Assembly (NCBI RefSeq): GCF_014191425.1
Contig: NZ_JACHWP010000001.1
Span: 434,001 to 498,000 of the forward strand
Length of the DNA: 64,000 bases
Direction: 5' to 3'
Source: Helcobacillus massiliensis
GTDB taxonomy: Bacteria > Actinomycetota > Actinomycetes > Actinomycetales > Dermabacteraceae
A program made the translations under genes and the position numbers. The notes below the pieces were generated by a model. The model was not told the origin of the DNA, searched no databases, and saw only the letters and a list, made by a program, of their open reading frames with translations. The stretch's first letter is position 1; the number at the start of each line of letters is the position of its first letter. This document shows, one piece after another, positions 17,104 to 31,674 of the stretch.

Positions 17104-18708
17104 GTGACGAATCCCGTCGTTCTGATCGCCGAAGAGCTCTCACCCGCCACCCGCGCCGCCCTCGGCGACGGCGTCGACGTCCGCACCGTGGACGGCACCG
17201 ACCGCGTGGCCCTCCTTGACGCCGTCTCCGACGTCGACGCCCTGCTGGTCCGCTCCGCCACCACCGTGGACACGGAAGTGTTCCAGCACGCCCCCAAGCT
17301 CAAGGCCGTCGCGCGTGCCGGCGTGGGCCTGGACAACGTGGACGTGGACGCCGCCACCTCGGCCGGCGTCATGGTGATCAACGCCCCCACCTCCAACATC
17401 GTCTCCGCCGCCGAACTGGCCATCGCCCACATGCTCGCGGGACTGCGGCACATCGCCGAAGCCAGCGCCTCCACGAAGGACGGTCGCTGGGAGCGCAAGC
17501 AGCTCACCGGTCTCGAACTGTTCGAGAAGACCGTCGGCATCGTCGGCTTCGGCCGCATCGGCCAGCTCGTCGCCGAGCGCCTGCAGCCCTTCGGCGTCGA
17601 GCTGCTCTGCTACGACCCCTACGTCTCCAAGGCCCGCGCCGCCGAATTCTCCGTCACCTCCGTGACCCTCGAGGAGCTGATGCGCCGCGCCGACATCCTC
17701 ACCATCCACATGCCGAAGACACCCGAGACGACCGGCATGATCGGCGCCGACCAGTTCGCCGTTGCCAAGCCCAGCCTCCATGTCGTCAACGCCGCCCGCG
17801 GCGGCCTCATCGACGAGGACGCGCTCTACGACGCCCTCACCACCGGTCAGATCCGCTCAGCAGGTCTGGATGTGTTCTCTGCTGAGCCCCCGTCGGCCTC
17901 CGAGAGCGCCAGCCGCCTGCTCACCCTGCCGAACGTCACCCTTACGCCCCACCTCGGCGCCTCCACCGATGAGGCGCAGGAGCGCGCCGGCGTGGCGGTC
18001 GCGAAGTCGGTGCGGCTCGCCCTGGCCGGTGAGCTGGTGCCGGATGCCGTGAACGTCTCGGGCGGCGAGATCGCGAAGTCCGTGCGCCCCGGCATCGCCC
18101 TCGCCGACCGCATGGGCCAGGTGTTCACCGCCCTCGCCGACTACTCGCCCTCGAAGCTCAAGGTCATCGTGCGCGGCGAGATCGCCGAGAAGGACGTCTC
18201 CGCGGTGAAGCTGTCCGCCCTGCGCGGCGTGTTCCGCCCGATCGTGGACCAGACCGTGTCCTACGTGAACGCCCCGGTCCTCGCCGAGCAGCGCGACATC
18301 GACGTGGAGCTCGTCACCGACACCCACTCGGAGCGCTTCCGCAACGAGATCGAGCTGCGAGGCACCCTCTCCAGCGGCCGCATCGTCTCGGTGGTCGGCA
18401 CCCTCGCCTCCAAGACGCAGGAGCACAAGCTGGTCGGCATCAACGGCCACCAGCTGGATGTGCCGCTGAGCGATCACATGCTCGTCATCACCTACCGGGA
18501 CCGCCCGGGCATCGTCGGCCAGATCGGTGCGGTGCTGGGCGGCGCCGGCAGCAACATCGCCGGCATGCAGGTGTCCCGCGAAGCCGACTCCGGCAGTGAG
18601 GCCCTGGTCGCCCTCAACCTGGATCGGCCCGCCACCGGCGAGCTCGCCGCCACCATCCAGAGCTCCATCGACGCCACCCGCGCAGCTGCGGTCAACGTCT
18701 CCTACTGA
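17104..18708 (+). CDS. serA: D-3-phosphoglycerate dehydrogenase (type I, long form)
   Basis: SerA oxidises 3-phosphoglycerate with NAD+ to start serine synthesis. The 534-residue protein is the long form known from mycobacteria: catalytic/NAD-binding domains ([16 protein letters not shown] near residue 145, [13 protein letters not shown] with the catalytic Arg region, and the catalytic His in [10 protein letters not shown]), an intervening allosteric domain (about residues 315-450) and a C-terminal ACT domain ([18 protein letters not shown]) that senses serine. Start: GTG at 17104, eight bases after GGAGG. leuB follows after 31 bp, probably in one transcript with ilvE. Confidence 0.96.
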
Positions 18709-18739
18709 CCCACTCATCCTCGGAACAGAAAGAGGCTCC

Positions 18740-19777
18740 ATGTCCTCGCTCAACCTCGCAGTCATCCCCGGCGACGGCATCGGCCAGGAGGTGATCCCCG
18801 AAGCGCTCAAGGTCCTGCAGGCCGCGCTCGAGGGCACCGACGTCCAGCTCACCACCGAGGAGTACGACCTCGGTGCTCGCCGCTGGCACGCCACCGGCGA
18901 GGCCCTCCCCGACGAGGACATGGAGGCCCTCGCCCAGCACGATGCGATCCTGCTGGGCGCCGTCGGCGACCCCTCCGTCCCCTCCGGCGTCCTGGAGCGG
19001 GGCCTGCTGCTGCGCCTGCGCTTCGCCTTCCAGCACTACGTGAACCTGCGACCCACCGTGCTGCTGCCGAACGTTCCCTCCCCGCTCGCCGATCCGGGCG
19101 AGGTGGACTTCCTGGTGGTCCGCGAGGGCACCGAAGGGATGTACGTCGGCAACGGCGGCACGATGCGCGAAGGCACGGCCGACGAGGTTGCGACCGAAGT
19201 GTCGCTCAACACGGCCCTCGGTGTGGAGCGCGTGGTCCGCTACGCGTTCGAGCAGGCGCAGGCGCGCCGCAAGCGCCTCACGCTGGTGCACAAGCACAAC
19301 GTGCTGGTGCACGCCGGGCACCTGTGGCGGCGCATCACCGACGAGGTCGGTGCCGAGTACCCCGAGGTCGAGGTCGACTACAAGCACATCGACGCCATGA
19401 TGATCCACCTGGTGGACTCCCCGTCCCGGTTCGACGTCATCGTCACCGACAACCTCTTCGGCGACATCATCACCGACCTCGCGGGCGCGATCTCCGGCGG
19501 CATCGGACTGTCCGCCTCCGGCAACCTCAATCCGTCCGGTGACTTCCCCTCGATGTTCGAACCGGTGCACGGCTCCGCCCCGGACATCGCCGGGCAGGGC
19601 ATCGCGGACCCGACCGCGGCGATCCTCTCCGCTGCCCTGCTGCTGGACAGCCGGGGCCTGACGGACGCCGCCGAGCGCATCCGCTCCGCCGTGCACGCCG
19701 ACCTCGCCGCCACCGCGCCCGGCACGCGCTCCACCACCGACGTGGGCGACGCGATCGCCGCCGCAGTCCGCGCCTGA
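18740..19777 (+). CDS. leuB: 3-isopropylmalate dehydrogenase
   Basis: LeuB oxidatively decarboxylates 3-isopropylmalate (and 3-methylmalate when CimA feeds isoleucine). The 345-residue protein is the short actinobacterial form. It shows the family's [17 protein letters not shown] start, the substrate arginines around [11 protein letters not shown] and LRPTVLLP, the catalytic Lys in LVHKHNVL and the metal-binding Asp in [20 protein letters not shown], then [19 protein letters not shown]. Start: ATG after AGAAAGAGG. It lies between serA and ilvE, whereas leuCD are 14 kb away under a separate regulator. Confidence 0.96.
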
Positions 19778-19838
19778 CACCATCCGTTCCGCAGGCAGCA
19801 ATCGCCTCTGCTGCCCGCCCCGCACCAGGGAGCCCGCC

Positions 19839-20918
19839 ATGACCTACACACCGCCCACAGCGCCGCGCCGCACCAGTGACGAGCGCCGCGCCGAGATCCT
19901 CGCTGCACCCGGCTTCGGCAACCACTTCACCGACTACATGGCGCATCAGCGCTGGACGGTCGGCGAGGGCTGGAGCAGCGGGGAGGTGCTGCCCTACGGG
20001 CCGCTGAACATCGAGCCGGCCAGTGCCGTGCTGCACTACGCGCAGGAGATCTTCGAGGGCCTCAAGGCGTTCCGTCACGCCGACGGCTCCGTGTGGACGT
20101 TCCGCCCCGATATGAACGCCCTGCGCTTCCAGCGCTCCGCTGAGCGCCTGGCCCTGCCGCCGCTGTCCACCGAGGACTTCATCGCCAGCCTTGAAGCCGT
20201 GGTGCAGGCCGATGAGCCGTGGGTGCCCGGCGGTGGGGAGAAGTCGCTGTACCTGCGTCCGTTCATGTTCGCGAACGAGAACTTCCTGGGGGTGCGCGCC
20301 TCCCACACTGTGGACTTCTACACGATCGCCTCACCCGCCGGTGACTACTTCCCGCGCGGCGTGCAGCCGCTGACGGTGTGGATCTCCCCGGACTACGCCC
20401 GGGCCGGCCGAGGCGGCACCGGCTTCGCGAAGTGCGGCGGCAACTACGCCTCCTCGCTGGAGGGGAAGAACTCCGCTGTGGGCCAGGGCGCTGACGAGGT
20501 GATGTTCCTCGACTCCGAGACCCACACCTTCATCGACGAGCTGTCCGGTATGAACGTGTTCGTGCTCCACAGCGACGGCCGCCTCGTCACCCCGCAGCTC
20601 ACCGGTTCGATCCTGCCCGGCGTGACCCGCGATTCGATCCTGGAGCTGGCTCCCGACCACGGCCTCACCCCCGTGGAGGAGCGCATCGACATCCATCGGC
20701 TCGCTGAGGACATCGCCTCCGGTGAGGTGCTGGAGATGTTCGCCGCCGGCACCGCCGCGGTCATCAACCCGATCGGGAAGCTCGCCTCCGAACAGGGGGA
20801 GTGGACCATCGGCGACGGCGGATCGGGCGAGACCACGATGGCGCTGCGTCGCATCCTGACGGACCTGCAGTACGGCCGCATTGCTGACGACCGAGGATGG
20901 ATGCACCGACTCGTATGA
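19839..20918 (+). CDS. ilvE: Branched-chain amino acid aminotransferase
   Basis: IlvE transfers the amino group from glutamate to the three branched-chain keto acids, the last step of the pathway. The 359-residue class IV PLP enzyme has PYGPLNIEPASAVLHYAQEIFEGLKAF-type N-terminal blocks, substrate-side YLRPFMFANENFLGVR, the PLP lysine Lys198 in GFAKCGGNYASSL and VMFLDSETHTFIDELSGMN, all typical of type II actinobacterial IlvE. It follows leuB by 61 bp without an intervening terminator. Its last codons overlap the -10 box of the downstream cimA gene. Confidence 0.96.
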   Translation: MTYTPPTAPRRTSDERRAEILAAPGFGNHFTDYMAHQRWTVGEGWSSGEVLPYGPLNIEPASAVLHYAQEIFEGLKAFRHADGSVWTFRPDMNALRFQRSAERLALPPLSTEDFIASLEAVVQADEPWVPGGGEKSLYLRPFMFANENFLGVRASHTVDFYTIASPAGDYFPRGVQPLTVWISPDYARAGRGGTGFAKCGGNYASSLEGKNSAVGQGADEVMFLDSETHTFIDELSGMNVFVLHSDGRLVTPQLTGSILPGVTRDSILELAPDHGLTPVEERIDIHRLAEDIASGEVLEMFAAGTAAVINPIGKLASEQGEWTIGDGGSGETTMALRRILTDLQYGRIADDRGWMHRLV

Positions 20919-20919
20919 T
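20914..20919 (+). promoter_or_regulatory. -10 box for leaderless cimA transcript, inside the ilvE stop
   Basis: TATGAT spans the last sense codon and TGA stop of ilvE and ends 6 nt before the cimA ATG. No ribosome binding site precedes cimA. Confidence 0.6.
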
Positions 20920-20925
20920 GCACCC

Positions 20926-22527
20926 ATGACTGCCTTCCACATCTACGACACGACCCTGCGCGACGGCTCCCAGCAGGAGGGCCTCAGCCTGTCGGTGCAG
21001 GACAAGCTGCGGGTCGCCCGTCTGCTCGACGAGCTCGGCGTCACCTACATCGAAGGCGGCTGGCCGGGCGCGATTCCGCGCGACACCGAGTTCTTCCAGC
21101 GCGCCGAGAGGGAGCTGCGGCTGCGTCACGCCCGGCTGGCGGCGTTCGGCGCGACCCGCCGCGCGGACACCGCTGTGGAGGATGACGAGCAGGTGCAGGC
21201 GCTGCTGGACTCCGGCGCCGGGACGATCACGATCGTCGCGAAGTCGGATATCCGCCACGTCACCGACGCTCTGCGCACCACGCCGGAGGAGAACCTGGCG
21301 ATGGTGACGGACACCGTCGGCCATCTGCGGGAGGCGGGCCGCGAGGTCTTCGTGGATGCGGAGCACTTCTTCGACGGCTTCGACTGCGACCCCGACTACG
21401 CCACCCGCGTGGTGGCGGCGGCGCTGCGGGCGGGCGCCGCCGTGGTGGTGCTGTGCGACACCAACGGCGGGATGCTGCCCCACCGGGTCACCGAGATCCA
21501 CGCGGAGCTGCGGGAGCGTCTGGAGGCCGACGGGATCCGGGACCCGCAGCTGGGCGCTCACATGCACAACGACACCGGTTGCGCGATCGCCAACTCCCTT
21601 GAGCTGGTGCGCGGCGGTGCGATGCACGTGCAGGGCTGCGTCAACGGCTACGGTGAGCGCACCGGCAACGCCGATCTCATCCCCGTGGTGGCGAACCTGC
21701 AGCTGAAGATGGGGCGCGACATCGTGCCGGCGGCCGCGCTGGAGGACGCGACCCGCATCGCCCACGCGATCGGTGAGATTGCGAATATGCCGACTCAGCC
21801 GCGCGCACCGTACACCGGGTCGAGCGCGTTCGCCCATAAGGCCGGTCTGCACGCCTCGGCGATCCGGGTGGACCCGGATCTGTATCAGCACATCGATCCG
21901 CGCCACATCGGCAATGACATGCGGATGATCATCTCCGATATGGCGGGACGCGCCTCGATCGAGCTGAAGGGCCGGGAGCTCGGCTTCGACCTCGCCGGCA
22001 GCAAGGATCTGCTGGCGCGCCTGGCCCGCACTGTGAAGCAGCGGGAGGCGGCCGGGTACAGCTATGAGGCGGCCGATGCGTCGTTTGCGATGCTGCTGAT
22101 GGATGAGATGCGCGGCGCTCCGTCGTACGCGCAGGTGGAGTCGTGGCGGGCCACGAGCCACCAGTTCCGCGACGGCTCCGTGGAGTCCGAGGCGACGGTG
22201 AAGCTGAAGGGCGATGGCCGCTTCGGGCGCGAGGTGACGATCGCTGAGGGCAACGGTCCGGTGCATGCGCTGGACTCGGCGCTGCGCACGGCGCTGTCGC
22301 GCAGCTACCCGCAGGTCCTGACGTTCGAGCTGCAGGACTTCAAGGTCCGCATCCTCGACTCCGAGGTGGGCGCGTCGGCGATCACGCGTGTGCTGGTCAC
22401 CACCGCGATCCCGGGGGAGACGTTCACGACCGTGGGCGTGGGGCCGAACATGATCGAAGCCTCCTGGGAGGCGCTGTTCGATGCCTACAACTACGGCCTG
22501 TACCGCCTGGAGCTCGGCTCGATCTGA
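20926..22527 (+). CDS. cimA: Citramalate synthase (2-isopropylmalate synthase/homocitrate synthase family)
   Basis: CimA condenses pyruvate and acetyl-CoA to (R)-citramalate, opening a threonine-independent route to 2-ketobutyrate and isoleucine. The 533-residue protein begins with HIYDTTLRDGSQQEGLSLSV and GVTYIEGGWPGAIPRDTEFF; the GGWPG block distinguishes CimA-type proteins from LeuA. LCDTNGGMLPHRV and LGAHMHNDTGCAIANSLEL supply metal-binding residues of the TIM barrel, and residues after about 400 form the LeuA-like regulatory domain (FTTVGVGPNMIEASW). Start: ATG six bases after a TATGAT box. LeuBCD, encoded in this window, can process citramalate onward. A 2-isopropylmalate synthase role is the alternative but fits the sequence less well. 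Confidence 0.88.
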   Translation: MTAFHIYDTTLRDGSQQEGLSLSVQDKLRVARLLDELGVTYIEGGWPGAIPRDTEFFQRAERELRLRHARLAAFGATRRADTAVEDDEQVQALLDSGAGTITIVAKSDIRHVTDALRTTPEENLAMVTDTVGHLREAGREVFVDAEHFFDGFDCDPDYATRVVAAALRAGAAVVVLCDTNGGMLPHRVTEIHAELRERLEADGIRDPQLGAHMHNDTGCAIANSLELVRGGAMHVQGCVNGYGERTGNADLIPVVANLQLKMGRDIVPAAALEDATRIAHAIGEIANMPTQPRAPYTGSSAFAHKAGLHASAIRVDPDLYQHIDPRHIGNDMRMIISDMAGRASIELKGRELGFDLAGSKDLLARLARTVKQREAAGYSYEAADASFAMLLMDEMRGAPSYAQVESWRATSHQFRDGSVESEATVKLKGDGRFGREVTIAEGNGPVHALDSALRTALSRSYPQVLTFELQDFKVRILDSEVGASAITRVLVTTAIPGETFTTVGVGPNMIEASWEALFDAYNYGLYRLELGSI

Positions 22528-22573: not shown

Positions 22574-23770
22574 TCAGATCGGCTGCTCGAGGGTGCGGTC
22601 GATGACGCCCACGAGTCGGTCCATCGATTCCGCGATGACGTCGGGGGAGTGGGTGACGAAGCTGAGCCGGAGCGTCGAGAAGTCGGGGTCCTGCGCGAAG
22701 AACGACCAGCCCGGCAGGTACGCCACGCCGGCGTCGCAGGCGTCGGCCAGCATGTCCTGGGCGTTGATGCCGGAGCCGAGCGATGCCCAGAGGAACATGC
22801 CGCCCTCCGGGTAGGTGATGTGGGCGCTGTCCGGGAGACGGCCCGAGAGGGCGTCCGCCATGGCGTCGCGACGGTGCCGGTACACGTCGATCACCTGCGC
22901 GACGTGTCCCTCGAGGTCTTCGGTCTCCAGGTAGCGGGCCACGGTCAGCTGGTCCACCACGGAGGACTGCATCGAGATCGCTGACTTCGCCACGGCGAGG
23001 GTCTGCCCGATGGGGCCTTCGGCGCGGGTCCAGCCGATGCGGACGCCCGGGCTCATCAGCTTCGACATCGAGTTCATCAGCAGCGTCTGCTTCGACAGCC
23101 CCGGCAGCGACGCGATCGGCGCAAGCGCCTCACCGGAGAAGCGCAGGTCCCCGTACGGGTCGTCCTCGATGAGGGCGAGGCGGTGGCGCAGCACGATCTC
23201 ACCGACCTGTTCGCGGCGGGACATCGGCATGGTGCGCCCCGTCGGGTTCTGGAAGCTCGGGATGAGGTACAGCGCGGCGGGGGAGTGCTCGCCGATCGCG
23301 GCCTCGAGAGCGTCCGGCAGGACCCCATGGTCATCGCACGGCACCCCGATGATCCGCGCTCCGTGCGCAGCGAACGCCTGCACAGCGGCGAGATAGGTGG
23401 GGGACTCCACGAGGATCACATCGCCCTCGTTGAGCAGCGCCTGCGCGGCGATGAACAGGCCCTCCTGGGACCCTGACGTGATCTGCACCTGGTCCGCGGA
23501 GGTGGGCAGGAAGCGGGACATCCGTGCCGCGGCCTGTTCGCGCATCTCGGCTTCGCCTTCGGTGACGCCGTACTGCAGGGCGCGCTGTCCCTGATGGGTG
23601 AGCACCCAGTCGTAGCAGCGCCGCACCGCGTCGAGGTCGAACAGGGCAGGGTCGGGGATGCCGCCGGCGAAGGAGACGACGTCCGGCCGGGCCGCGAGGG
23701 CGAAGATCTCTTTGACGGGGGAGGTGGCGAGGCCGCGGTAGCGGTCTGCGACGGGGAAGTCGAAGGTCAC
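22574..23770 (-). CDS. PLP-dependent aminotransferase (class I/II, LysN/2-aminoadipate-like)
   Basis: The 398-residue fold-type I aminotransferase has SFAGGIPDPALFDLDAV near the N-terminus, LQYGVTEGEAEMREQ, the cofactor-contacting PSFQNPTG (Asn175) and EDDPYGDLR, and the PLP lysine Lys237 in MNSMSKLMSPGVRIGW. These match the 2-aminoadipate/aromatic/branched aminotransferase subgroup related to MocR catalytic domains; it has no DNA-binding domain. Substrate unknown. The GTG start overlaps the stop of the ArsD-like gene by 4 bp (GTGA), so the two are translationally coupled. It converges on cimA with only 46 bp between the stops. An amino acid or keto acid role near the branched-chain cluster is possible but not shown. 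Confidence 0.85.
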   Translation of the reverse strand: MTFDFPVADRYRGLATSPVKEIFALAARPDVVSFAGGIPDPALFDLDAVRRCYDWVLTHQGQRALQYGVTEGEAEMREQAAARMSRFLPTSADQVQITSGSQEGLFIAAQALLNEGDVILVESPTYLAAVQAFAAHGARIIGVPCDDHGVLPDALEAAIGEHSPAALYLIPSFQNPTGRTMPMSRREQVGEIVLRHRLALIEDDPYGDLRFSGEALAPIASLPGLSKQTLLMNSMSKLMSPGVRIGWTRAEGPIGQTLAVAKSAISMQSSVVDQLTVARYLETEDLEGHVAQVIDVYRHRRDAMADALSGRLPDSAHITYPEGGMFLWASLGSGINAQDMLADACDAGVAYLPGWSFFAQDPDFSTLRLSFVTHSPDVIAESMDRLVGVIDRTLEQPI

Positions 23771-24303
23771 CGGCCGCTCTCCTCGCCGCCCGGGGTGGGC
23801 AGGCCGTCGCCGGTGTCGCCGCCCATGAGGTTGCGGCGGGCGCCGATGTCCGGCGCGTTCGGCTCGGGTCCGCGCAGCATGGCGGCGAGGCCGGCGGGCT
23901 TCTGCCGGCCGACGGGTGCCGTGCCCTCGCCCGTGCCGTCGGCACCGCCCTGGCCGGCGCTTCCCCGGCCGGGTGCGCAGGCGTTGGAGGGGCCGCGCGG
24001 CGTGTCCTTCTCGGTGGTGGCGAAGCGGCGCATCTTCTCAGCGGTGGGGTAGGCGTACACGCCGAGGATCTCGCTGCCGAGCAGGGTGATCGGCAGGATG
24101 TCCTCACCGGAGACGTCGATCATGTCCTTGACGTGCTCGCAGGCGGTGAACGCCTCCGGCTGGTCGTCGGTGGAGTAGACCAGGATCGGCAGGCCCTCCG
24201 CGCGCAGCTCCTCCACGGTGGTGAGGAACTCGCTGCGCTCCTGGAGGGAACCGTCGGCCTCGGCGCTCTCGCGCCCGGGAATGAAGATTTCGACGTCGTT
24301 CAT
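23767..24303 (-). CDS. ArsD-like protein lacking the metalloid-binding cysteines
   Basis: Residues 26-95 of this 178-residue protein align well with the arsenic metallochaperone/repressor ArsD: VEELRAEGLPILVYSTDDQP, then AFTACEHVKDMI, a Gly-Glu/Asp turn, LPITLLGSEILGVYAYPT and EKMRRF. In ArsD the N-terminal loop carries the Cys-Cys...Cys arsenite site; here that loop reads IPGRESAEADGSLQERSE, with no cysteine, and only one Cys (residue 55) is in the core. A Gly/Pro-rich, probably disordered tail of about 75 residues follows. No arsenic genes are nearby. It starts 7 nt after a TAGGCT box and is coupled to the downstream aminotransferase. Fold assignment is inferred from the alignment pattern; function unknown. 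Confidence 0.65.
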   Translation of the reverse strand: MNDVEIFIPGRESAEADGSLQERSEFLTTVEELRAEGLPILVYSTDDQPEAFTACEHVKDMIDVSGEDILPITLLGSEILGVYAYPTAEKMRRFATTEKDTPRGPSNACAPGRGSAGQGGADGTGEGTAPVGRQKPAGLAAMLRGPEPNAPDIGARRNLMGGDTGDGLPTPGGEESGR

Positions 24304-24310
24304 GCGCTCC

Positions 24311-24316
24311 AGCCTA
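24311..24316 (-). promoter_or_regulatory. -10 box for leaderless ArsD-like/aminotransferase transcript
   Basis: On the minus strand TAGGCT ends 7 nt before the ATG at 24303; no ribosome binding site is present. Confidence 0.5.
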
Positions 24317-24341: not shown

Positions 24342-26903
24342 TCAGCGCCAGGGCGCCTTCGCGATGTCCCCGGCGTACTCCATCGACAGGGCGAGCTCCC
24401 CGGCCTCATCGGAGGCGTCGACATCGAGCACGGCCTGCAGAACGAAGTCGTTGTTCTCATCGGGGTCCATGACGGTCTGGGTGATCAGCCACTGCTTCGA
24501 CTCCTTCGTGATCCGCAGCAGGCGCGGATCGCGGGCCTGCGGCTCGATCACGACATGGTCGTACAGGTCATAGAACTCGTCCATGGCCTCGCCCCAGCGG
24601 TCAGCGTCCCAGTCGTCGTCACCGAGCTGGCCGAGGTCCTCTTCGCGCTCGAAGGCGAAGTCCTCCACGCGGCGCCACATCGCCTGACGGATCATTGTCT
24701 CCACCACCTTCGTCTGGGCCGTGAGGGCGCGCGGGGAGTCGGGCCGGATCTCGTCGGCGCCGTCGTGGCCGTCGCCGTCCTCCGGATGGGCGAGCGCCTC
24801 CCATTCGTCCAGCAGGGAGGAGTCCACACCGCGCACGAGCACGCCGAGCCATTCGATGATGTCCTCGACCTCGTCGGTGCGCAGCTCCTGCGGCAGAGTG
24901 CGCCTCAGGGTCTGATAGGCGTCCGAGAGGTACCGCAGCACAATGCCCTCGGAGCGGATCAGCTGATACCGGGAGACGAACTCGCTGAATGTGGAACCGG
25001 TCTCGAACAGCTCCCGCACGATCGACTTCGGGGAGAGGTCATCCACCGGCACCCAGGGGCGCTGCTTCGCGTAGATCTCCAGCGCCGCCTCCAGCTCCTC
25101 CGCCAAGGGCTTCGGCCACGTCACCTCGTCCAGCAGCTGCATCCGCTCCTGGTACTCGACCCCGTCGGCCTTCAGCTCCGCCAGCAGACGGCGCTTCGCG
25201 GTGCCCTGCTGGGCGAGCAGGATCTGCCGCGGGTCCTCCAGGATCGCCTCGATCGTGGAGACGGTGTCCATCGTGAGGTCCGGGGAGTCCTCATCAAGGG
25301 AGTCGAGGAACGCGATCGCGAACGGCGCCAGCGGCTGGTTCATCTGGAAGTCCAGCTGCAGGTCCTCCACCAGGTGGATGCGGCGGCCCTGGTTGTCGGC
25401 GGTGCCGGTGACCTCCACGATCTCCGATTCGGTGAGGCCGCGGAACAGCTCGATGGCGCGGCGCTTCAGGGCGAGCTTCTGCGCCGGTGTCTGGTGGCTC
25501 GTCTCGATCAGCTGCCGTGCGTGGGCGGCGGCGCTTCCGGGCCGTGCGATGAGCGCCAGCAGCATCGAGGAGGTGATGCGCATGTGGGCGCGCAGCGGCG
25601 CCGGAGGGTTCTCCACCAGTTTCGTCAGGTTCGCCTCGGTCCAGTTGACGGCGCCCTCGGGGACCTTCGCCTTCGGCTCTCTGCGCTTCTTCTTCGCATT
25701 GTTCGGTGCCTTCCCCGATTCGGCACGGGCCGCGGCGCGGGCCTTCTGCTTCTCGAACTCGACCGTCCACTCGGGCGCCTGCACCACAACGTGCCCCACC
25801 GTGTCGTACCCGGCGCGACCGGCGCGGCCCGCGATCTGGTGGAACTCCCGGGAGTTCAGCAGGCGGGTGGTGCGGCCGTCGAACTTCGCCAGCCCCGTCA
25901 GCAGCACGGTGCGGATCGGCACGTTGATGCCCACCCCGAGGGTGTCGGTGCCGGCGATGACTTTCAGCAGCCCGGACTGGGCGAGGCGCTCCACCAGACG
26001 CCGGTACTTCGGCAGCATTCCGGCGTGGTGCACCCCGATGCCTTCGCGCACCAGCTTGGAGAGGATCTTCCCGAAGCCGCGCGAGAAGCGGAAGTCCCCG
26101 ATCAGCTCCCGGATCTGCGCCTTCTCGTCCTTGGTGAGGATGTTCCAGCCCAGCAGGTTCTGCGCCTGCTGCAGCGCGTTCGCCTGCGTGAAGTGGACGA
26201 TGTAGACGGGGGCGTCGCGGCTCTCGAGGATCTCCCTGATGGTGTCCTCGAGGTCAGTGGTGGCCCACCGGAAGTCCAGCGGCACCGGCCGCGGCGCATC
26301 CCAGATGGTGGTGACGGATCGGTGCGTGCGCTTGTTCAGGTCCTCTTCGAAGAAGGCGACGTCACCGAGCGTGGCGCTCATCAGCACGAACTGCGCATCG
26401 GTCAGCTCCAGCAGCGGCACCTGCCACGCCCAGCCGCGCTCGGAGTCACCGTAGAAGTGGAACTCGTCCATCACCACCACTCCGATGTCGGAGTCGGCGC
26501 CGTCGCGCAGCGCATGGTTGGCGAGGATCTCCGCCGTGCACACGATGATCGGCGCATCATGGTTCACCGCGGCGTCACCGGTCATCATGCCGACCATCTC
26601 GGCACCGAACATGGAGACGATCTCGAAGAACTTCTCGCTCACCAGCGCCTTGATGGGCGCCGTGTAGTAGGCGCGCTCCCCGCGGGCCATGGCTGCGAAC
26701 AGCGCGGAGTACGCGATGGTGGTCTTCCCCGACCCCGTGGGCGTGGCCGCGATGACGTGCTCTCCGGCGGCGATCGCCAGCAGCGCCTCCTCCTGGTGCG
26801 GGTAGAGGGTGCGCCCCACGGAGGCCTGGGCCTCGACGAAGGCGTCGACGATCTGGTCCCCACCGGAGGACTCGGGCAGGAAGGAGGCCAGGAGAGAGGT
26901 CAT
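24342..26903 (-). CDS. DEAD/DEAH-box superfamily 2 helicase with DUF3516 domain
   Basis: This 853-residue protein is the actinobacterial relative of Ski2-type RNA helicases. Motif I is ATPTGSGKT (residues 53-61), motif II is DEFH (146-149), motif III is LMSATLG, and motif VI is QIAGRAGRAGYD near residue 365. A lysine-rich stretch (KKKRREPKAK, about 405) separates the helicase core from the C-terminal DUF3516 region. Such proteins are widespread in actinobacteria and probably unwind structured RNA, but the substrate is not established. On the minus strand it follows the HAD gene by 50 bp. GACAAT lies 6 nt upstream of the ATG, a weak version of the leaderless pattern. Confidence 0.92.
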   Translation of the reverse strand: MTSLLASFLPESSGGDQIVDAFVEAQASVGRTLYPHQEEALLAIAAGEHVIAATPTGSGKTTIAYSALFAAMARGERAYYTAPIKALVSEKFFEIVSMFGAEMVGMMTGDAAVNHDAPIIVCTAEILANHALRDGADSDIGVVVMDEFHFYGDSERGWAWQVPLLELTDAQFVLMSATLGDVAFFEEDLNKRTHRSVTTIWDAPRPVPLDFRWATTDLEDTIREILESRDAPVYIVHFTQANALQQAQNLLGWNILTKDEKAQIRELIGDFRFSRGFGKILSKLVREGIGVHHAGMLPKYRRLVERLAQSGLLKVIAGTDTLGVGINVPIRTVLLTGLAKFDGRTTRLLNSREFHQIAGRAGRAGYDTVGHVVVQAPEWTVEFEKQKARAAARAESGKAPNNAKKKRREPKAKVPEGAVNWTEANLTKLVENPPAPLRAHMRITSSMLLALIARPGSAAAHARQLIETSHQTPAQKLALKRRAIELFRGLTESEIVEVTGTADNQGRRIHLVEDLQLDFQMNQPLAPFAIAFLDSLDEDSPDLTMDTVSTIEAILEDPRQILLAQQGTAKRRLLAELKADGVEYQERMQLLDEVTWPKPLAEELEAALEIYAKQRPWVPVDDLSPKSIVRELFETGSTFSEFVSRYQLIRSEGIVLRYLSDAYQTLRRTLPQELRTDEVEDIIEWLGVLVRGVDSSLLDEWEALAHPEDGDGHDGADEIRPDSPRALTAQTKVVETMIRQAMWRRVEDFAFEREEDLGQLGDDDWDADRWGEAMDEFYDLYDHVVIEPQARDPRLLRITKESKQWLITQTVMDPDENNDFVLQAVLDVDASDEAGELALSMEYAGDIAKAPWR

Positions 26904-31357: not shown

Positions 31358-31429
31358 TGGGGTATGGTGTAATTGGCAACACGGCTGATTCTGGTTCAGT
31401 TGTTCTAGGTTCGAATCCTGGTACCCCAG
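31358..31429 (+). tRNA. tRNA-Gln (anticodon CTG)
   Basis: The 72-nt sequence folds as a standard cloverleaf: acceptor stem TGGGGTA with TACCCCA, anticodon stem GCTGA/TCAGT with loop TTCTGGT giving anticodon CTG at 31391-31393, and a T arm with GGTTCGAATCC. The discriminator is G and CCA is not encoded. Under the GatCAB route it would first be charged with glutamate. It is the first gene of a three-tRNA cluster. Confidence 0.95.
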
Positions 31430-31469
31430 CGATCTGCACTTCGGTGCGGAACACGGCAGAGATGCCGAG

Positions 31470-31542
31470 GCCCCGTTCGTCTAGCGGCCTAGGACGCCGC
31501 CCTCTCACGGCGGTAACACCGGTTCAAATCCGGTACGGGGTA
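31470..31542 (+). tRNA. tRNA-Glu (anticodon CTC), copy 1
   Basis: The acceptor stem GCCCCGT pairs with ACGGGGT (first pair G-U), the anticodon stem is CCGCC/GGCGG with loop CTCTCAC and anticodon CTC, and the T arm contains GGTTCAAATCC. No CCA is encoded. It lies 40 bp after tRNA-Gln. Confidence 0.95.
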
Positions 31543-31592
31543 CAGGGAATCGCAATCATCCATCAGTCTCGATGGGTGAGCGCTGTTCCAAG

Positions 31593-31665
31593 GCCCCGTT
31601 CGTCTAGCGGCCTAGGACGTCGCCCTCTCACGGCGGTAACACCGGTTCAAATCCGGTACGGGGTA
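31593..31665 (+). tRNA. tRNA-Glu (anticodon CTC), copy 2
   Basis: Identical to copy 1 at 31470 except for one base: the first base of the anticodon stem is T instead of C (TCGCC/GGCGG), turning a C-G pair into U-G. Everything else, including anticodon CTC, is conserved, so it should be functional. It lies 50 bp after copy 1 and is followed by the cluster's terminator. The two copies look like a recent tandem duplication. Confidence 0.95.
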
Positions 31666-31674
31666 CACGGTAGG

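Follow-up and report, generated by a model that had tools for sequence, protein, structure and literature searches.

The window, a 64-kb stretch of the Helcobacillus massiliensis genome, encodes on its minus strand a member of a distinct subfamily derived from ArsD. The subfamily is conserved at the protein level and was sampled in Dermabacteraceae, in Rothia and in two probably misnamed records. Its members keep the ArsD fold, carry two invariant cysteines away from the ArsD metalloid site and end in a conserved tail motif. A stand-alone thiol protein of this ArsD offshoot, which would dock a partner via its tail, is the reasonably probable reading of the function. The original prediction, made from the letters of this locus, is partly confirmed, and its observation on the ArsD-like gene largely holds. 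In the open-access literature, neither an account of a Cys-less ArsD clade nor a paper with the tail motif was found.

The locus and its putative promoter

The predicted open reading frame at 23767-24303 was found and encodes 178 residues, and its stop overlaps the aminotransferase start by 4 bp, as had been described. On the minus strand, the DEAD-box/DUF3516 helicase gene is followed, after a 38-bp gap, by the ArsD-like frame and then by the aminotransferase gene (Table 1).

Table 1. Features of the ArsD-like locus, in window coordinates.
Feature	Position	Strand	Basis
ArsD-like orphan protein, 178 aa	23767..24303	(-)	ORF, Pfam, AlphaFold, Foldseek, VIA-align
ArsD/thioredoxin-like domain, residues 1-97	24013..24303	(-)	AlphaFold secondary structure
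Loop, residues 9-18, at the position of the canonical ArsD CC..CG metalloid site; without Cys	24250..24279	(-)	Sequence, canonical comparison
Cys55 codon, invariant in the copies read; aligned with Asn58 of ArsD chain 3kgk	24139..24141	(-)	
Cys109 codon, in the linker, invariant in the copies read	23977..23979	(-)	
Residues 138-145, conserved motif in the linker, which reads GFAAxLxG in relatives	23869..23892	(-)	Information content
C-terminal hallmark motif, residues 150-169, GP[DE]IGxRRNLMGGDxGDGLP	23797..23856	(-)	Profile, conservation, codon count
-10-like box TAGGCT, 7 nt 5' of ATG	24311..24316	(-)	Sequence pattern
GTGA, 4 bp shared by the ArsD-like stop and the start of the aminotransferase gene	23767..23770	(-)	Sequence
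PLP aminotransferase (Aminotran_1_2), neighbour, no conserved partner	22574..23770	(-)	Pfam, family genomes
DEAD-box/DUF3516 helicase, upstream; 38-bp gap to the ArsD-like gene	24342..26903	(-)	Pfam

The predicted leaderless start is backed by a pattern. The TAGGCT box stands 7 nt upstream of the ATG. In 24 of the 27 Dermabacteraceae loci, the window included, a TANNNT box precedes an in-frame ATG by 6-7 nt; the loci without the box at the start are L003, L006 and L013. No such box was found 6-7 nt upstream of the ATG in any of six Rothia-side loci. Judged from this pattern, a leaderless start and a promoter of its own are likely in the Brachybacterium loci and in the window, because the Brachybacterium neighbours differ from those in the window. 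A scan for consensus promoters and terminators gave no match between window positions 22400 and 24600, and leaderless promoters without a -35 box lie beyond the reach of that scan.

Elsewhere in the window, the plus strand carries at 18527-22527 a run of putative genes for LeuB (assigned by eye), for an IlvE-like aminotransferase of class IV and for an HMGL/LeuA-dimer protein (citramalate/isopropylmalate synthase-like). This LeuB-like, IlvE-like and LeuA-dimer run is convergent with the aminotransferase gene that adjoins the ArsD-like gene. Three tandem tRNA genes (Gln-CTG, Glu-CTC and Glu-CTC) lie at 31358-31666.

Fold, cysteines and the arsenic context

The claim of an ArsD-type fold stood up to structure prediction and profile search, and Pfam, Foldseek and VIA-align all lead to ArsD. 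Over residues 24-103 the Pfam ArsD profile scores 41.9 bits, above its cut-off of 27, which places the protein in the family at the level of the fold, and the cut-off of the ArsD equivalog NF033727 is missed (36.7 versus 90 bits). The AlphaFold model, built on an input alignment of 28 sequences, has a confident core (pLDDT of at least 90 for 92 residues) with the succession of elements E4-8, H11-16, H20-35, E40-44, H49-54, H56-65, E72-75, E78-82 and H88-96, which is of the thioredoxin type. ArsD chains account for all seven PDB matches that Foldseek returned at E<=0.001. In VIA-align, 91 residues superpose on 3mwh_A with a Z of 14.4 and an rmsd of 2.3, and the first row that is not ArsD has a Z of 8.2. 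A profile of 12 sequences also matches the ArsD structures 3ktb, 3kgk and 3mwh by sequence. The likeness to ArsD (PF06953; NF033727; PDB 3kgk, 3mwh and 3ktb) lies in both the fold and the core sequence. A passage of PMC3091736 places ArsD itself in the thioredoxin-like clan. Thioredoxin, glutaredoxin and NrdH have the general fold in common with the window protein and supply the next-best structural rows (Z about 7-8). The CXXC or CXXS active site of thioredoxin and glutaredoxin, however, is missing from the window sequence at its usual place after the first strand.

No cysteine occurs in residues 1-54 of the window protein, and the As(III) site of ArsD, Cys12/Cys13/Cys18, is thus gone. These three residues are given as essential for ArsD metallochaperoning in a passage of PMC4562236, which cites Lin, Yang & Rosen 2007. 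Whereas ArsD has this loop, the invariant cysteines of the window protein are Cys55 and Cys109. Both are kept in 39 of the 39 copies read, the window's included, which represent at most 37 genomes since L046 repeats L033 and L042 repeats L034. In the alignment of the 12-sequence profile, the Cys55 column faces Asn58 of the 3kgk chain. The description "cysteine-free" is therefore right for the loop but not for the whole protein. A repurposed thioredoxin fold of the ArsD type without the metalloid loop, as had been proposed, is supported.

Additional cysteines are found in part of the subfamily. Four are present at the extreme C-terminus in 11 of the 12 loci on the Rothia side, or in 9 of 10 genomes when the repeats L042 and L046 are not counted, and in the Brachybacterium locus L013, and two in L007. 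The term "metal-independent" was not borne out, given these four-Cys C-termini and the two invariant cysteines.

The main rival to a stand-alone thiol protein is a binder of soft metals or metalloids whose ligands have moved. Cys55 and Cys109, together with the Rothia C-terminal cluster (GGCxCGGCxCG or GGCCGGxCGCG), would then provide the ligands for As(III), Cu(I) or Zn(II). The C-termini of the Rothia proteins favour this reading, by analogy with the C-terminal vicinal pairs of the R773 ArsD, which are thought to bind. In a passage of PMC4562236, the pairs Cys112-113 and Cys119-120 of the E. coli R773 ArsD are held to serve a regulatory role. Modified versions of such pairs recur in 11 of the 12 loci on the Rothia side. 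The reading of moved ligands is not favoured by the window protein, which has no R773-type pair and no cysteine after residue 109. Moreover, no cysteine follows the motif in 24 of 27 Dermabacteraceae copies, again including the window's (L028, being out of frame, was not judged), nor is there a C-terminal cysteine in the Rothia-genus copy L059. Neither of the two ars families tested was found in the host genome, which also speaks against moved ligands, and this reading is considered rather unlikely.

The two families are ArsA and Acr3. The original prediction had seen no arsenic genes near the locus, and the same picture extends to the whole host genome for these families, as no ArsA was detected at E<=1e-12 and no Acr3 at E<=1e-20. 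Another Dermabacteraceae genome with the ArsD-like gene, G041, likewise lacks both. At looser limits, three weaker P-loop matches in the host, of at most 36.5 bits, pass the Pfam ArsA cut-off of 24.3 bits, which is also passed by matches in 14 of 14 control genomes. The best of the three host matches reads, in our own reading, as a ParA-type protein.

ArsD is treated as an ArsA-associated chaperone in a passage of PMC2963123, and in passages of PMC2963123 and PMC4562236 its roles are those of a chaperone for arsenite and of a repressor, with a link to ArsA. Unlike ArsD, the window protein has no ArsA gene adjoining it or detected in its genome. The absence of ArsA and Acr3 from the host at the limits used argues against an ArsD chaperone role. 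For the window genome, a canonical ars chaperone is unsupported, with 36.7 of 90 bits for NF033727, no ArsA and no Acr3. Across the family, ArsA occurs somewhat more often where the ArsD-like gene is present (12 of 27 genomes) than where it is absent (3 of 20; Fisher p 0.056). This weak association might reflect either a remaining tie to ArsA in some species or common ancestry.

Distribution and the conserved tail

The ArsD-like gene is present in 27 of 47 genomes of the host family: the own genus (1/1), Brachybacterium (25/38), a third genus, g3 (1/4), and none of the four genomes of the other three genera. Two of the 13 Brachybacterium genomes without the gene are less than 90% complete. Because these 13 of 38 genomes lack it, the gene seems dispensable. 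Remnants of the gene were sought at the empty sites with four query copies, over about 1.5 kb at ten gene-free Brachybacterium MsrA loci, and none was found (tblastn best E 0.2 or worse).

Samples of the order, the class and the phylum were searched with at most eight first-look candidates scored per genome, a limit under which distant members can be missed. In the order sample (396 genomes), 32 genomes match, of which 26 reach at least 203 bits (20 Dermabacteraceae and 6 Rothia) and the other six at most 43 bits. Of the 394 genomes sampled from the class, the own one and one Rothia match strongly, and of the 396 sampled from the phylum, the own genome alone. Weak matches were obtained in 21 genomes of the three samples, and the loci were read for 19 of them (G244 and G1059 were left out). 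The canonical CC..CG loop is retained in all 19 (recognized by pattern in 18 and by eye in L158), and in 17 of them the same locus also holds a Walker A motif of the ArsA type. When 32 tail-type domains and 18 canonical ones were placed in one tree, the two sets split at 100/99 support. The window copy and the one from G041 form long branches, and their placement within the clade is unsure. Duplicates were dropped (L001, L035 and L036, which repeat L002, L015 and L021, respectively), and L028 was excluded from the tree and from the tail codon count, its frame breaking before the tail.

A scan of named records with short patterns of the window protein, by which distant members can be missed, retrieved five records of Rothia, two of Brachybacterium and one named "Curtobacterium sp. 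S6". A search of plasmids for the ArsD-like protein gave no match, and phage records gave one, in an unverified record named Bacteriophage sp. The latter (MT835529.1, 11454-27894, L076), from a human fecal sample, reads as a piece of a Brachybacterium-like chromosome, in which the genes flanking the ArsD-like copy are, by eye, subtilase-like, MsrA, HNH/DUF222-like and MoxR-like. The ArsD-like gene of Curtobacterium sp. S6 (L029) is very near the Rothia koreensis copy (end branches of 0 and 0.12), with a related symporter gene upstream. This record is probably misnamed.

The tail of these proteins, an addition of 20 conserved residues compared with ArsD, follows a linker of low predicted order. 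AlphaFold assigns a pLDDT below 50 to residues 112-146, 49-59 to the end of the tail and 43-59 to the tail overall, without secondary structure. The "long disordered tail" of the original prediction is in this sense modelled without structure, but its end is conserved as protein, with a mean information of 3.61 for residues 147-170 versus 3.38 for the core (residues 26-96), a modest difference. The core of the motif is present in 32 of 33 distinct loci, the exception being L028, in which the frame is lost before the tail, and the Brachybacterium copies L018 and L027 have a shortened tail with the first part of the motif only. Over 32 sequences, the first 13 motif codons depart from the majority base mainly at the third position (0.341, compared with 0.038 at the first and 0.055 at the second). 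This variation indicates that the amino acids, rather than the DNA, are conserved.

The codon pattern bears directly on the idea of a decaying ArsD remnant without function. The lost ArsD active site, the patchy presence in 27 of 47 family genomes and the three copies whose tail is shortened (L018 and L027) or lost from the frame (L028) would all be compatible with decay. Tail codons that vary mostly at the third position, the invariant Cys55 and Cys109 and a promoter-like box conserved in 24 of 27 loci speak against it, and decay is considered very unlikely.

A profile of the 20-residue motif matches 54 of the 396 order-sample genomes at E<=0.1, and 26 of these are the ones that hold the ArsD-like gene. 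The strongest match in any other genome (6.5e-5, L138) falls in a 288-aa frame whose composition we judge to look non-coding, and the second (L140) in a frame of only 43 aa; the motif patterns were not matched in L141 and L142. Apart from weak matches in the other 24 genomes, the order sample of 396 genomes yielded no convincing tail-only protein.

The invariant cysteine pair and the unstructured linker that ends in a conserved motif suggest a response through thiols combined with docking through a linear motif. With Cys55 and Cys109, the ArsD core may make up a unit sensitive to redox state or to soft metals; the tail motif may be a short linear docking site for some partner. The absence of modelled structure in the tail counts against this best explanation, in which the thiol and docking functions are what we infer. 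A further step, put forward tentatively, is that an ArsA-independent branch of ArsD turned into a signalling or adaptor protein, with a thiol-controlled core and an RRNLMGGD tail recruiting a conserved actinobacterial partner.

The clade offers a testable case of an ars protein in another use, with the fold kept, the metalloid loop and the ArsA link dropped and a linear motif gained. It is found in Brachybacterium and in Rothia, an oral commensal. The automatic label "arsenic metallochaperone ArsD", which we assume such proteins may carry, would mislead.

Gene neighbours

The original prediction paired the ArsD-like protein with amino acid metabolism, in which it would regulate the neighbouring PLP aminotransferase or join it as a subunit. 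The same-strand 4-bp overlap in the window makes co-translation plausible. The enzyme passes Pfam Aminotran_1_2, and among the best 25 of 70 NCBIfam rows no cut-off is passed. Its homologues (E<=1e-40) are found in 36 of the 47 family genomes, namely the own genome, 34 of 38 Brachybacterium and, as one distant match, G044. The survey of orthologues ran against the pairing. Among 36 loci that include 1.1 kb or more of flanking sequence on either side, the aminotransferase gene adjoins the ArsD-like gene only in the window's own (L001 and L002), and the overlap therefore reflects local gene order. In each of the 25 Brachybacterium genomes that hold both genes, the aminotransferase gene lies away from the ArsD-like one, on the same contig in 15, at a distance never below 109 kb, and on different contigs in 10; these 25 are all the Brachybacterium genomes in which the ArsD-like gene occurs. 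Nine other Brachybacterium genomes have the enzyme but lack the ArsD-like gene. In G041, which does have the ArsD-like gene, no aminotransferase was detected at E<=1e-40. A role as aminotransferase partner is strongly disfavoured. The overlap would rather be a lineage-specific arrangement, probably giving joint expression without joint function.

A second candidate partner is methionine sulfoxide reductase A, for which the ArsD-like protein would act as a redox partner in genomes of the Brachybacterium type. A convergent MsrA gene lies within 2 kb of the ArsD-like gene in 12 of 13 Brachybacterium regions (L078-L090) and also in L035 and L036, and a thioredoxin-like fold with invariant thiols would suit such a task. 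The convergent orientation, however, excludes an operon, the ArsD-like protein has no CXXC, and MsrA is also present in 10 of 11 tested Brachybacterium genomes without the ArsD-like gene. In the window genome and in G041, MsrA is on another contig, and in G002 it is about 0.5 Mb away. A redox partnership in genomes of this type is accordingly very improbable, though a partner at the level of the genus is conceivable, MsrA being a near-constant neighbour within Brachybacterium.

No single gene partner is kept across genera. Neighbour names have Pfam support on one example each (PMSR for MsrA). A FadR-type (GntR/FCD) gene lies upstream on the same strand in 9 of 13 Brachybacterium regions, and in G002 the ArsD-like gene comes directly after a DnaB gene. 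On the Rothia side, most regions have a PTS-IIA gene (often with an aldolase gene) or an alanine-symporter gene as neighbour, and no neighbour query matched in L092. The helicase gene that precedes the ArsD-like gene is common to the own genome and G041. In G041 (L077, 2089-8238), a putative sugar-alcohol PTS operon with a DeoR-type regulator, recognized by eye, lies between the CimA-like and the ArsD-like genes and stands in the place of the aminotransferase.
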